DNA from: Acholeplasmataceae bacterium
Lineage (GTDB): Bacteria; Bacillota_I; Bacilli_A; Acholeplasmatales; Acholeplasmataceae
Reading direction: 5' to 3'
Assembly: GCA_021736335.1 (NCBI GenBank)
Contig: JAIPGC010000006.1
Location: forward strand, 1 to 41,145
Length of the DNA: 41,145 nucleotides
The notes under the pieces were generated by a model. The model saw only the letters and a program-made list of their open reading frames with translations, did no database searches and had not been told where the DNA came from. A program made the position numbers and the translations under genes. Below are positions 28,296 through 33,175 of this stretch, piece by piece; the first letter of the stretch is position 1; each line of letters starts with the position of its first letter.

Positions 28296-29651
28296 TTAGT
28301 CTTTGTTTTGAGCATCTTCATATCTTTCAGCTTGAGCAGTAAATCTACTAAATGCTGTATCAAACATGAAATGTAATGAAACGCCGGCAATACCTTGACG
28401 GTTTTTTGCAATACTTAAATCAACTTCACCAGTCAAATTCTTTTCATCACGTTCATAATAATCTTTACGATATAAGAACATGACAATATCGGCATCTTGT
28501 TCAATACTTCCGGATTCTCTTAAATCAGCTAAAACGGGTCTTTTATCTTCTCTTTTTTCTACTTCACGAGAAAGCTGTGATAAAGCGAGTACTGGAACTT
28601 TGAGTTCTCTTGCCATTTGTTTAAGAGCTCTTGAAATCTTCGCAACTTCCTCTTGACGATTACCTGAACGATCATCTCCTTTAATTAATTGGAGATAGTC
28701 GATAACAACAAAATCAAGCTTGCCTTGTTGGCTTAATTTTCTACATTTAGTTCTAATATCGGCAACTGTAACAGCAGCCGAATCATCAAAAGAAATATTA
28801 AGCTTTGCTAAAGACTGCATACCACCTTCTAGAAATTGCCATTCTCTAGGTGTTAAATGTCCTGTTTTGATTTTCATATTTTCAATATTCGACTCAGAAC
28901 TTAGCATACGACCAGCAAGCTGTTCGTTGCTCATTTCCAAACTGAATATCGCAACGCCTGCTTGACCATCTTTATTTCTTTTAGCAATGTTAAGTGCTAA
29001 ATTCATTGCCATAGCTGATTTCCCCATTGATGGACGAGCAGCTAAAATAATCAATTCTTCAGGTTGAAGACCTGCAGTTATATTATCAATATTGGAAAAT
29101 CCAGTTCTAAGTCCAGTGATTCCACCTTTCTTATCCCTATTTTTTTCCATCTTATCTTTAACTTCATGAATGACCTCTGACAAAAGTGAAAAAGCAGAGG
29201 TTTTTCTCTTTTGTGCAAGTGCAAAAATACTTTCTTCGGCCTTTGATAAATAATCATTGGCATCCATTTCGCCTTGGTATCCTTCTTCTAAAATACTTCC
29301 AGCAAGTTCAATGACTTGTCTCTTGAGAGAACCATCTTTAACCAAATCAACATAGGTTTCAAGGTGAGCAACTGAAGGGACAGCTTCTGATAATTGCAAA
29401 AGGTATTTCATACCTCCTGCTTTTTGAAGATTTTGATTTTGTTCCAGTCTTGAAGCTACGCTGGTGTAGTCAATCTTCAAATTATCAGCAAACAAATCTT
29501 TCATTACTTGATAGATGAGTGCATGTCCTTGTTCGAAGAAGTCTTCATTATTTAATTGGTCAATCACTGAACTGATTTGTTTCGGGTCTAAAAAGATTGC
29601 TCCTAAGACTGATTGTTCAGATTCATGATGATGTGGTAGGCTTTTAGCCAT
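28296..29651 (-). CDS. dnaB: Replicative DNA helicase
   Basis: A 451-residue hexameric helicase (DnaC in Bacillus naming). The N-terminal domain (1-105) begins LPHHHESEQSVLGAIFLDP. The RecA-like motor domain has Walker A ARPSMGKSA, FSLEMSNEQLAGRML and the Walker B region LDFVVIDYLQLI. No intein is present. It is seven bases after the gdpP-rplI gene and shares its promoter, the ancestral gdpP-rplI-dnaB order. Confidence 0.97.
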   Translation of the reverse strand: MAKSLPHHHESEQSVLGAIFLDPKQISSVIDQLNNEDFFEQGHALIYQVMKDLFADNLKIDYTSVASRLEQNQNLQKAGGMKYLLQLSEAVPSVAHLETYVDLVKDGSLKRQVIELAGSILEEGYQGEMDANDYLSKAEESIFALAQKRKTSAFSLLSEVIHEVKDKMEKNRDKKGGITGLRTGFSNIDNITAGLQPEELIILAARPSMGKSAMAMNLALNIAKRNKDGQAGVAIFSLEMSNEQLAGRMLSSESNIENMKIKTGHLTPREWQFLEGGMQSLAKLNISFDDSAAVTVADIRTKCRKLSQQGKLDFVVIDYLQLIKGDDRSGNRQEEVAKISRALKQMARELKVPVLALSQLSREVEKREDKRPVLADLRESGSIEQDADIVMFLYRKDYYERDEKNLTGEVDLSIAKNRQGIAGVSLHFMFDTAFSRFTAQAERYEDAQNKD

Positions 29652-29658
29652 AGTATCC

Positions 29659-30102
29659 CTACTTTTCTATGATATGTACTTCGAATTGTGCTTTGATATC
29701 CTTATGTAATGAAACTGTGGCTGTATAGATGCCTATCGAATTGATGTCGCTTGAGATTTCAATCTTTTTACGATCAATCAAGATATGGTGTTCTTTTTCA
29801 AATGCTTCAACAATCTGTTTTGTTGTAACACTTCCAAACAATTTGCCATCTTGACCAATTTGAATACCTAAGGTTACTTTCTTATTATCGATTTCTGCCT
29901 TTAGTTTCTTCATTAAATCAATGTGTCTTTGGTTTTCTTCAAATGCTTCTTCTTTTGCTCTATTTAATTCAGCAAGATTCTCATCAGTAGCCAATAATGC
30001 TTTCTTTTGGGTCACCAAGAATTGGCCATACCCACCAGCAACCTCAATTACATCTTCCTTTTTACCTTTGCCTTTAACATCTTCTAATAAAATGACTTTC
30101 AC
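29659..30102 (-). CDS. rplI: Ribosomal protein L9 from an internal GTG start inside the gdpP fusion
   Basis: The last 147 codons of the fusion encode a complete L9: KVILLEDVKGKGKKEDVIEV, the GGYGQFLV loop, the long connecting helix and the C-terminal domain. A GTG at 30100-30102 encodes the first residue of L9. GGAGGTGGAG (30108-30117) lies just before it, with GGAG five bases away. These same bases encode the glycine linker of the fusion. Independent translation of L9 for the 50S subunit is therefore likely, alongside any full-length fusion. Confidence 0.6.
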   Translation of the reverse strand: MKVILLEDVKGKGKKEDVIEVAGGYGQFLVTQKKALLATDENLAELNRAKEEAFEENQRHIDLMKKLKAEIDNKKVTLGIQIGQDGKLFGSVTTKQIVEAFEKEHHILIDRKKIEISSDINSIGIYTATVSLHKDIKAQFEVHIIEK

Positions 30103-32094
30103 AGGTTCTCCACCTCCACCATATTCTAAATCGATATAATTTTTCAACTCATCATACACATCGTGTACGGATTTATCTTTAATTTGTGCAGCAGCACTAT
30201 TTAAGTGTCCACCACCACCTAATGCTTCCATTAAGATTTGAACATTAATATTTTGATATGAACGTGCTGAAACACCAATCGTGTTTTGATTCATGCGTGC
30301 AATCATAAATGCTGCATCAACACCATTAATCTGCAAAGCCGCATCAGCAACTTGCGCCAATAGTATTCTATCTTCATAAATATCAGACGTAATCACGAAT
30401 GCAAATCTTTCCAAATATATTTCAACATTGCCCAAAAGATTATTAATCTCCAGGGTTCTCATTAAATCTCTTCTTAACCATAGCTTAACGCTTGTTACGT
30501 CAGCACCTAAGTCCTTAAGCTTAGCAGCAACCTCAAAGGTTCTCGCTCCAGTTCTATAACTGAAGTTATTGGTATCAACTACTAATCCACCATACATAAT
30601 CGTAGCTTCAAGTGGTGATATCTTGATTTCTTCTTCCATATTATAGAAATTGAGCAATTCCATCATCAACTCAATTGTTGAAGATGCATATGGTTCAATG
30701 AAACTAAAGAGTGAATTAAAGCTTTCTTCACTTGCTCGGTGGTGATCAACAACAATCAATTTGCCAACCTTTTCCAAAATGTCTGGGTTCATGACCATCT
30801 TTGGTGACTGAGTATCTACGACAATCAATAAACTATCAGCATTGATTTGTTTAATGATTGACTCTGAATCGTAACAATTTTCAACCAGTGCTGGAAGGTC
30901 TGCTTTAACAATTTCAAATATTTGTTGAACTGTCTTATCTAGTTTTGGCACATCTACAACTAGGTAAGCTAGCTTTTTACTGGCTTTAGCCATATGATAA
31001 ACAGCAATCATTGAACCAAAATCATCTAGGTCAGCTTGATTGTGTCCCATGATGATAACATTTGAAGATTTTTCAATAAAGTCTTTAATGGTTTGCGCAT
31101 TGATTCTTACACCAACACGTGAGTTCTTAGCTGATGCATCATTTTTAGCACCAAAGTAAGCAATCTTTTGGTCCTGAATATTGACAACGACTTGGTCTCC
31201 GCCTCGTTTTTCTGCAAGTTCAATCGCATTTTGTGCATAGATACCGAGTTCTTCATAATTGACATCCCAAGAGGCTATACCCATAGAAATGCTCACTCGA
31301 ACTTGGTTTTGGGTTGAAATTAAACGCACTTTATCCAAAATGTCAAATTTATCTTGAATCATCAGATTAAGCTGTTTGCGAGATAGAACAACAACCAATC
31401 TTTCATCTGAATAGGGTTTCAAGAATCCGTTATATTTATTTGCCCAGTCAGCAATCGCTGCTAAGTATTCACCCTTTAAACTCGATTGCTCAGAAACATC
31501 CATTGATCCTAACGCTTCATCAAGATTATCCAAATAGATGATACCTAATGCTGGGATTTGTTCATTGTATCTTTGTTTAACTGTTTCTCTATCGGTGACA
31601 TTAAACAAGTAAAAGAATTTATATTCAGCACGATAAGTCACATCATAGCTTTCATTTTTAACTTGAATGATAAACTGAATCTTATTATTCATTGCTGCTA
31701 AATGGAGCTGAGGATGAACATCTTTTAAATCTTTCCCCATGATTTTAGCATCAAAAATCGTTTTAGCATGAGGATTTGCCCATTTGATTTCAAAGTCCTC
31801 ATCTAAAGCGATAATTCCGATTGGCAATTCATTAAAAACTTCATCGCCTACTTGATTAACATGATAAGACAACTTCGTCCACATGGATAATCTATTTTGT
31901 AAAGTCTTTACTTTTTGTCTGTTTTGATAATTAAGAGTTACATATATAGCGACAAAAATAAGGACAAGACTGCCCAATAATAGAATAAACGAAGTTAGAT
32001 GTGCTGCAGATTCAAATTTCAGATAGGGTAAAAATAAATAAATACTACTACCTAAAACAATCAGAGCAAGTATGAGGAATAGCCAACGTTTCAT
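29659..32094 (-). CDS. gdpP-rplI: GdpP c-di-AMP phosphodiesterase fused to ribosomal protein L9
   Basis: An 811-residue fusion. Residues 1-55 hold two membrane helices. A PAS-like domain (about 80-160) and a degenerate GGDEF domain (about 180-305) follow. The DHH/DHHA1 phosphodiesterase (about 335-655) has GHNQADLDDFG (350-360), DTQ, VVDHHR (D450) and GGGGHLNSAA (626-635). All metal-binding motifs of GdpP are intact. After a short EYGGGGEP linker, residues 665-811 are full-length L9. The ATG at 32094 is preferred because AGGTGG lies five bases upstream. GdpP is normally a separate gene next to rplI. Confidence 0.9.
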   Translation of the reverse strand: MKRWLFLILALIVLGSSIYLFLPYLKFESAAHLTSFILLLGSLVLIFVAIYVTLNYQNRQKVKTLQNRLSMWTKLSYHVNQVGDEVFNELPIGIIALDEDFEIKWANPHAKTIFDAKIMGKDLKDVHPQLHLAAMNNKIQFIIQVKNESYDVTYRAEYKFFYLFNVTDRETVKQRYNEQIPALGIIYLDNLDEALGSMDVSEQSSLKGEYLAAIADWANKYNGFLKPYSDERLVVVLSRKQLNLMIQDKFDILDKVRLISTQNQVRVSISMGIASWDVNYEELGIYAQNAIELAEKRGGDQVVVNIQDQKIAYFGAKNDASAKNSRVGVRINAQTIKDFIEKSSNVIIMGHNQADLDDFGSMIAVYHMAKASKKLAYLVVDVPKLDKTVQQIFEIVKADLPALVENCYDSESIIKQINADSLLIVVDTQSPKMVMNPDILEKVGKLIVVDHHRASEESFNSLFSFIEPYASSTIELMMELLNFYNMEEEIKISPLEATIMYGGLVVDTNNFSYRTGARTFEVAAKLKDLGADVTSVKLWLRRDLMRTLEINNLLGNVEIYLERFAFVITSDIYEDRILLAQVADAALQINGVDAAFMIARMNQNTIGVSARSYQNINVQILMEALGGGGHLNSAAAQIKDKSVHDVYDELKNYIDLEYGGGGEPVKVILLEDVKGKGKKEDVIEVAGGYGQFLVTQKKALLATDENLAELNRAKEEAFEENQRHIDLMKKLKAEIDNKKVTLGIQIGQDGKLFGSVTTKQIVEAFEKEHHILIDRKKIEISSDINSIGIYTATVSLHKDIKAQFEVHIIEK

Positions 32095-32199: not shown

Positions 32200-32448
32200 T
32201 TAGTCCTTGACGAATGGGATCAAAGCCATGTGACGTGCTCTTTTAATTGCTGTCGCAAGTGGACGTTGCCATTTAGCTGAAGTTCCTGTAATACGTCTTG
32301 GTAAAATCTTACCACGATCAGTAATAAATCTCTTCAATAGCTCTACATCCTTGAAATCTATGTGTTCAACTTTATTTTGTGTAAAGTAACATACCTTCTT
32401 GCGCTTTTTAAATCCACCGCCGCCACCGCTGCGTCTTTGTTGTTGCAT
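32200..32448 (-). CDS. rpsR: Ribosomal protein S18
   Basis: An 82-residue 30S subunit protein that pairs with S6. It has a basic glycine-rich N-terminus, then [20 protein letters not shown] and [17 protein letters not shown], the S18 signature. SD AAGGAGG, 12 bases after ssb. Last gene of rpsF-ssb-rpsR. Confidence 0.97.
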
Positions 32449-32460
32449 GATGTTTCCTCC

Positions 32461-32886
32461 TTAAAATGGTAGATCTTCTTCTGCAGCGAGTTGTTTACTT
32501 GTTTCGTAGAACTCGTCATTATCTGCAGTGTCAGTATCTTTTTCGTAAGTTGTTTCATTGTTGGTTTCGCCCTTGCTCTCTAAGAACTGGACGGAATCAC
32601 AAACAACTTCTGTAACATAACGTGTACCGTTGTCTGCTTCATACGTTCTTGTTTGTATGCGACCTTCGATACCTAGTAATGCACCTTTTTTTACAAAGCG
32701 TGCTAAATTTTCTGCTTGTTTGCGCCAGACGACGCATTGAATGAAGTCAGCTTGTTTTTCTCCCGATTGATCGGTAAATTGACGATTAACTGCAAGAGTA
32801 AAGCTAACTACGGCAATATTTGATTGTGTCGACTTCATTTCTGGATCCTTGGTAATTCTACCCACCAAAATGACTCTGTTCATCAT
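32461..32886 (-). CDS. ssb: Single-stranded DNA-binding protein
   Basis: A 141-residue protein with an N-terminal OB fold ([17 protein letters not shown], then [14 protein letters not shown] and [16 protein letters not shown]). An acidic disordered tail ends in EEDLPF, the conserved partner-binding peptide. It lies one base after rpsF, with AAGGAAGG as SD. It coats single-stranded DNA during replication and repair. Confidence 0.96.
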
Positions 32887-32887
32887 A

Positions 32888-33175
32888 TTATTCGCCTTCC
32901 TTTACAACAATAAATCGAATGACTTCTTCTGTAATTCTAACAACACGGTTAAATTCAGCAACTGCTTCTGGAGTTGCATCAACGAGTAGCCAAACATAAT
33001 AGCCTTTTTTGTGATGTTCAATTTCATAAGCTAAATCTTTCAAACCCAACTCTTTAAGTTCCAACACTTTACTATCGTAATTAACGAATATCTCGTTAAA
33101 ATGATTTACAATGGTTTTAATGTTTTCGCTTTCTACAGTTGGACGGATGATATACATAACTTCGTATTTTTTCAT
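32888..33175 (-). CDS. rpsF: Ribosomal protein S6
   Basis: A 95-residue protein of the 30S platform. [15 protein letters not shown] and [23 protein letters not shown] are the S6 signatures. SD AAGGAGGTGG. First gene of the operon, with its own promoter 60-90 bases upstream. In many Firmicutes the S6:S18 complex represses this operon through a leader RNA; the typical CCG-containing motif is not visible here. Confidence 0.97.

Follow-up and report, generated by a model that had tools for sequence, protein, structure and literature searches.

The window analysed here, a stretch of 41,145 nucleotides from an Acholeplasmataceae bacterium (assembly GCA_021736335.1, contig JAIPGC010000006.1), carries on its minus strand a gene in which the frame of gdpP, for a predicted cyclic di-AMP (c-di-AMP) phosphodiesterase, runs without a stop into that of rplI, for ribosomal protein L9. 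At the junction, a Shine-Dalgarno (SD) sequence stands ahead of a GTG codon that encodes the first residue of L9, and we propose that the locus would give rise to two proteins, a GdpP-L9 fusion and a free L9. The features of the gene are as follows.

29659..32094, minus strand: fused gene gdpP-rplI, 811 amino acids, ATG start at 32094, TAG stop at 29661-29659
30103..32094, minus strand: GdpP part, 664 codons, with N-terminal helices, PAS, GGDEF, DHH and DHHA1 domains and linker (Pfam)
29659..30102, minus strand: L9 (rplI), 147 codons plus stop, both domains complete (Pfam)
30117-30108, minus strand: internal SD GGAGGTGGAG, read in the fusion as part of the linker GGGGE
30102-30100, minus strand: internal start GTG, encoding L9 residue 1 (V of VKVILLEDV)

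Translation of the minus strand over 29659-32094 gave 811 codons with zero internal stops, and the product holds, each above its Pfam cut-off, PAS_GdpP (residues 79-166), GGDEF_GdpP (186-310), DHH (345-503), DHHA1 (573-654), L9_N (665-710) and L9_C (728-809). The first-pass annotation of this DNA had read the region as one 811-codon frame with a complete GdpP and a complete L9, and the translation and the Pfam matches bear this out. PAS, GGDEF, DHH and DHHA1 follow one another in the order expected of a GdpP c-di-AMP phosphodiesterase, and we predict that this part of the product is such a membrane enzyme. Indeed, seven residues of the DHH domain (H351, D355, D357, D427, H451, H452 and D507), which we take to be its metal ligands, are invariant in all 161 loci of our junction alignment, which comprises 143 genomes of a draw of 395 from the class (without G344 and G066), the window a second time and 17 named records. 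The L9 part covers positions 1-47 of 47 in PF01281 and 3-85 of 86 in PF03948, and it matches TIGR00158 with 108 bits against a cut-off of 58.6. The fused L9 is the only L9 match in the 1.75-Mb assembly of the window's genome, and no second L9 was found elsewhere in this assembly, which is 85% complete.

The same fusion is already catalogued in NCBIfam as NF011110 (PRK14538, putative bifunctional signaling protein/50S ribosomal protein L9), a name that describes a single bifunctional protein and includes neither an internal start nor a free L9 product. The window gene matches this model with 1016 bits (cut-off 707) over model positions 57-835 of 838. GdpP and L9 share one frame in at least 145 of the 395 class genomes (hand count among the matches listed, plus G066), which fall into eight families: f1 with 29 genomes, f2 with 6, f3 with 20, f7 with 13, f14 with 29, f17 with 26, f21 with 3 and f22 with 19. 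Contig ends cut the gene in three of the 145 (G344, G229, G187), and seven genomes of the same families without an L9 match (G087, G328, G284, G252, G321, G350, G356) were left out of the count. In all eight families, every drawn genome with an L9 match has it fused. Deeper scans found L9 matches in 153 of 160 genomes of the window's order (seven rows, among them G422, G451 and the second match of G471, are unlisted), in 83 of 90 of the order of G374, in 26 of 28 of family f17 and in 13 of 15 of family f7. Among the matches listed, the frames are fused, either full length or as far as a contig end, save for second copies and the second L9 of G512. The first-pass annotation had supposed that loss of the gdpP stop merged the frames here; what emerges instead is an old, widespread and catalogued arrangement, present as well in seventeen named records of other assemblies (Acholeplasmataceae and kin).

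Family f5 holds unfused pairs. In L181 (G002), gdpP ends in TAA, followed by AAA and the ATG of L9 in the same frame, and in L185 (G015) the TAG of gdpP lies one base ahead of the L9 ATG. In a GdpP tree made by a quick method and with long branches, unfused f5 stands beside f1-f3 with a support of 81, and the history would therefore be either one fusion with a later split or several fusions. The f5 pairs may represent either the state before the fusion or a later return to separate genes.

The first-pass annotation also held that the L9 start survives inside the merged frame and that the linker doubles as its ribosome binding site. In the window, the SD duplex at GTG 30102 has a calculated energy of -10.6 kcal/mol, against -6.5 kcal/mol at the start of gdpP itself, -12.1 at rpsR and -13.5 at rpsF, while the best energy at the 42 other in-frame ATG, GTG and TTG codons of the GdpP part is -6.4 kcal/mol. 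Of 36 gene starts sampled in the window, seven have an SD at least as strong as the internal one. In one genome of the same genus, the canonical anti-SD sequence forms the end of the 16S rRNA; the pattern used for this tail matched that genome alone among 21, the window's own being among the 20 without a match, and a variant with other preceding bases gave no match.

Conservation among relatives makes the stronger case. After the window duplicate and identical junctions were dropped, 156 junctions remained, and L9 residue 1 is a start codon in 153 of them (138 ATG, 14 GTG, 1 TTG), the remaining three reading AAG, AAG and ACT. Wherever this residue is valine, its codon is GTG (14 of 14 non-identical junctions), compared with a GTG share of 13% among the valine codons of the GdpP parts. 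The mean SD energy at the 153 junctions is -9.3 kcal/mol, as opposed to -1.1 kcal/mol at 2437 internal methionine codons of the same GdpP parts, and 152 of the 153 have an SD match of at least four bases, a frequency of 15.7% at the internal methionine codons; one of the 152 (L105) has a match that is not usable as an SD (energy -1.5). When the linkers were recoded synonymously, the mean SD energy was -5.9 kcal/mol, and 135 of the 153 real junctions have a stronger SD than the average of their own recodings. In a set of 176 fused junctions with no tandem L9 copy behind them (the 156 plus 20 more of genus g12, identical ones kept), residue 1 is a start codon in every one (158 ATG, 17 GTG, 1 TTG), and the SD energy is -4 kcal/mol or better in 175. 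The survey of relatives for the fusion and for the linker SD, which the first-pass annotation had proposed, thus found both; together with GTG 30102 and GGAGGTGGAG in the window, this conservation supports the internal start and the double use of the linker as they had been described there.

The linker that overlies the SD differs between lineages. Its peptide is GGGGE in the window and in several relatives, whereas much of f14 and f22 has KEE or QEE and part of f17 has DGR. The SD is read in one phase in 91 of 157 junctions, in another in 61 and in the third in 4, with one junction lacking a four-base match. No conserved protease site was seen in these linkers, whose peptides vary between lineages. 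The best SD of gdpP itself is weaker than the internal one in 123 of 151 cases. Single-base changes that would create a stop and spare the SD core number 3.8 per junction on average (there are none in 6 of 157 junctions), and since not one of these routes has been taken in 145 fused genomes of eight families, the open frame seems to be selected. Family f5 may exemplify a route that was taken.

In five genomes, the fusion is followed immediately, within its own contig, by a second, free L9: G081 and G408 of genus g12 and G286, G293 and G300 of genus g78. This amounts to 3 of 5 genomes of g78 and 2 of 27 of g12 (26 with L9), and the two genera sit in separate parts of the tree (G408 is not in the tree). 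The free copies have an ATG of their own with SD-like bases ahead of it. In the fused copies of these genomes, the internal SD is lost in all five (energies -1.5, -1.5, -1.9, -1.9 and +1.0) and the start codon in three, all of g78. For a two-product gene, one would expect the internal ribosome binding site to be lost once free L9 has a gene of its own. The fused L9 domain is nevertheless full length and open in 5/5, and the four tandem loci included in the junction alignment retain all seven DHH residues. For the g12 pair, the ratios of nonsynonymous to synonymous substitution rates (dN/dS; all values NG86) are 0.115 for the fused L9, 0.133 for the free L9 and 0.155 for GdpP, so that the fused domain is under constraint in g12.

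The two copies also differ in sequence. We compared the tandem fused copies with 180 rows of single fused L9 (four genomes entered twice), the 5 free copies and 6 unfused L9 sequences. Gly24 is found in 180/180 single fused, 5/5 free and 6/6 unfused sequences, but in none of the five tandem fused copies (N, E, H, E, N). At position 25 the tandem fused copies read L, Q, T, Q and L, as against tyrosine in 5/5 free copies and tyrosine (76%) or phenylalanine (13%; 89% together) in the single fused rows. Position 28 reads K, I, E, N and K, while 94% of the single fused rows have tyrosine or phenylalanine there. Gly24 and positions 25 and 28 are presumably contacts to 23S rRNA. The glycine of the C-domain motif GKLFGSVT is gone from all five tandem fused copies and kept in all five free ones, and the C-terminal LHK motif is likewise gone from the five fused copies. 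Gly24 is lost only from the fused copy; it would therefore be kept for the sake of free L9, and the fused domain held for something else. Ribosome binding is thus probably not what maintains the fused L9 in the tandem lineages; where the lineage of the window is concerned, this evidence is indirect.

We put the probability at roughly 80% that the locus is a two-product gene, with free L9 serving the ribosome and the fused L9 doing a job other than docking to rRNA. Translation from ATG 32094 would yield a membrane c-di-AMP phosphodiesterase that ends, at its C terminus, in an L9 domain, and initiation at the internal GTG 30102, directed by the linker SD, would yield an ordinary free L9 for the ribosome. 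Free L9 would probably be in excess over the long product, because the internal SD is stronger than that of gdpP. Selection would maintain the open frame through the linker as well as the internal ribosome binding site and start, and the L9 domain of the long product would most simply be a stabilising or partner-binding tail of GdpP. That the cell may make both fused and free L9 had been suggested in the first-pass annotation; two products appear to be the best reading, given the conservation of SD and start and the tandem genomes. The frame, the SD and start conservation and the tandem copies are observed directly, and it is from these sequences that we infer that both proteins are made, in what ratio, and what the fused L9 does.

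A number of observations weigh against this interpretation. In the window, a fraction of 0.545 of 200 synonymous recodings of the linker has an SD as strong or stronger, because its four glycine codons yield GG runs regardless, so that the window SD does not exceed what its peptide demands. The case for a selected site rests on the relatives, in which an internal ribosome binding site and start appear to be conserved beyond the constraint on the protein. Even there, a four-base SD match survives in 75% of recodings, the linker peptides implying much of the SD, and 18 of 153 junctions are not above their own recoded mean. Conservation of single-copy L9 says nothing on the fused form, as free L9 shares its codons. 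Position 28 is histidine in both g12 free copies, leaving it aromatic in 3/5 free copies, and the same g12 free copies also lack LHK, a motif that accordingly does not separate the copies there. The close g78 pair has a dN/dS of 0.327 for the fused L9, twice the values of the free L9 (0.157) and GdpP (0.153), and the distant g78 pair L187-L188 has 0.92 (an unsafe value), 0.43 and 0.49, respectively, which leaves constraint on the fused L9 of the distant pair weak or not measurable. Finally, the assemblies of the five tandem genomes comprise 30 to 220 contigs and show contamination of 1 to 6%. Contamination is, however, an unlikely source of the second L9, which lies directly behind the fusion on one contig in all five.

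Faster evolution of the fused L9 than of free L9 and GdpP in g78 would suit the view that the tail is a functionless passenger, its frame open by chance, with only free L9 mattering. So would the fact that the SD and start are the most clearly kept features, and that Gly24 and the positions next to it degenerate in the fused copy when the genome also has a free one. We nonetheless consider this explanation rather unlikely: with about four easy routes per junction, no separating stop has arisen in 145 fused genomes of eight families, and the tandem fused copies, which could have been cut off, are full length in 5/5, with the low g12 dN/dS of 0.115. Less likely still, in our judgment, is the membrane-tethered ribosome favoured by the first-pass annotation, in which docking of the long product to 23S rRNA through L9 would keep ribosomes at the membrane, close to GdpP. 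Both L9 domains are complete and Gly24 is intact in 180 of 180 single fused rows, as such docking would have it, but these intact residues are common to free L9 and hence no proof for the fused form; moreover, in the two lineages with a free L9 (five genomes) the fused copy has lost Gly24 as well as the aromatic residues of positions 25 and 28, which weakens the proposal. A structure model of the fusion (mean predicted local distance difference test score, pLDDT, of 70; predicted template modelling score, pTM, of 0.38; shallow alignment of 17; residues 660-712 below 50, as are the linker and the L9 N-domain) offers no confident arrangement of L9 relative to GdpP and is uninformative on tethering either way.

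It could also be that only the long protein is made, with free L9 released by proteolysis of the linker or dispensable. The low confidence with which the linker is predicted, perhaps reflecting disorder, would agree with cleavage. However, the linkers GGGGE, KEE, QEE and DGR share no conserved cleavage motif, whereas SD and start are kept, and the SD is gone in the five genomes with a free copy; we regard this explanation as very improbable. An assembly or sequencing error that removed the gdpP stop, a possibility the first-pass annotation had raised against its own proposal, is refuted by the seventeen named records of other assemblies and the 145 of 395 class genomes with the fusion, and is practically out of the question.

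For the two-product gene we can sketch a history, to which we give even odds. In a remote ancestor of several Mollicutes-related families, the c-di-AMP enzyme would have captured L9 in frame, and the descendants would have kept it as a gene within a gene; the L9 fold would have taken on a second, non-ribosomal role as a permanent piece of the phosphodiesterase, and the roles would have been split twice by tandem duplication, into a GdpP-L9 without the invariant residue and a ribosomal L9. If this is true, the translation of a ribosomal protein and that of a second-messenger enzyme are tied together through a single mRNA. In the tandem-copy lineages, duplication seems to have split a two-product gene cleanly, and these lineages point to the recruitment of a ribosomal-protein fold to a c-di-AMP enzyme.

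Parts of this arrangement have precedents. The separate gdpP-rplI pair of other Firmicutes has the same neighbours; a stop separates the genes there, whereas the frame runs through here. A ribosome binding site of rplI inside the 3' end of gdpP is already known from Streptococcus gallolyticus, where, as described in PMC6398277, the authors retained the last 69 bp of gdpP to preserve it. For an internal L9 start in the fusion, or for the tandem split, we found no paper in the literature searched, a scope from which subscription papers are mostly absent. The available parts of PMC4014445 and PMC3750655 contain no mention of an internal L9 start, and the words 'fused' and 'gene fusion' are absent from the main text of PMC4014445, on the translation apparatus of Mollicutes. 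An in-frame internal start in cas8 and cas10 genes gives rise to Cas11, a smaller C-terminal protein reckoned by the authors of PMC11899642 to be made at a higher level. Cas11 works alike and is not a relative of the GdpP-L9 locus; here, in contrast, the small product would be a ribosomal protein with a housekeeping role, and the gene around it encodes an unrelated signalling enzyme, the two having been joined by fusion. A two-product scheme with an internally initiated C-terminal product is also found in the injectisome C-ring genes of the SctQ family, for which we know of no gene-fusion origin.

Because the database model gives the gene the name of one bifunctional protein, free L9 may go unannotated in these bacteria, and L9 may be scored as missing or as a fusion when ribosomal proteins are surveyed. 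The locus raises the questions of why a signalling enzyme should have an L9 tail and whether c-di-AMP control is coupled with ribosome supply.

Some observations on individual genomes complete the survey. The NF011110 cut-off of 707 bits is exceeded in 54 of the 395 class genomes, compared with at least 145 that carry the fusion; divergent families score below it, and many fusions may carry other names than that of the model. The other two g78 genomes, G087 and G328 (one 97% complete), have neither an L9 nor a GdpP-L9 match. Four further genomes were not counted as tandem: G449, with two fused 874-amino-acid frames far apart on one contig; G471, whose first match lies in a frame cut by the contig start and whose second is unlisted; G511, with two pieces at contig ends; and G512, whose second L9 lies in a 222-amino-acid frame on another contig, with GYGRNYLIP unlike its kin and contamination of 6%. 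The two G449 frames (G449:C1:328029 and 454421) have equal scores in a phytoplasma-like genome with contamination of 7%, and perhaps reflect a large duplication or an assembly effect. The short L9 frames of G423, G456, G454, G471, G535, G520, G523 and G511 are fused as far as the contig end. In L246 (G472), the fused frame starts after a stop 34 codons into the contig, which interrupts the GdpP part; this is perhaps a true change, a contig-end error or a frame shift. The 397-amino-acid L9 frame of G143 and G205 (L252, L253) was rejected as another fusion, since it runs out of frame over a separately stopped gdpP in GC-rich DNA.

Around the fused gene of the window lie the following genes.

32888..33175, minus strand: rpsF (S6), Pfam PF01250, upstream, in the same ribosomal-protein neighbourhood
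32461..32886, minus strand: ssb, Pfam PF00436, upstream
32200..32448, minus strand: rpsR (S18), Pfam PF01084, upstream
28296..29651, minus strand: replicative helicase DnaB, Pfam PF00772/PF03796, directly downstream

The L9 motif of the window (within 29965-30102) reads GGYGQFL, with glutamine at position 27, a residue present in 16% of the single fused rows, where asparagine is commoner (81%).

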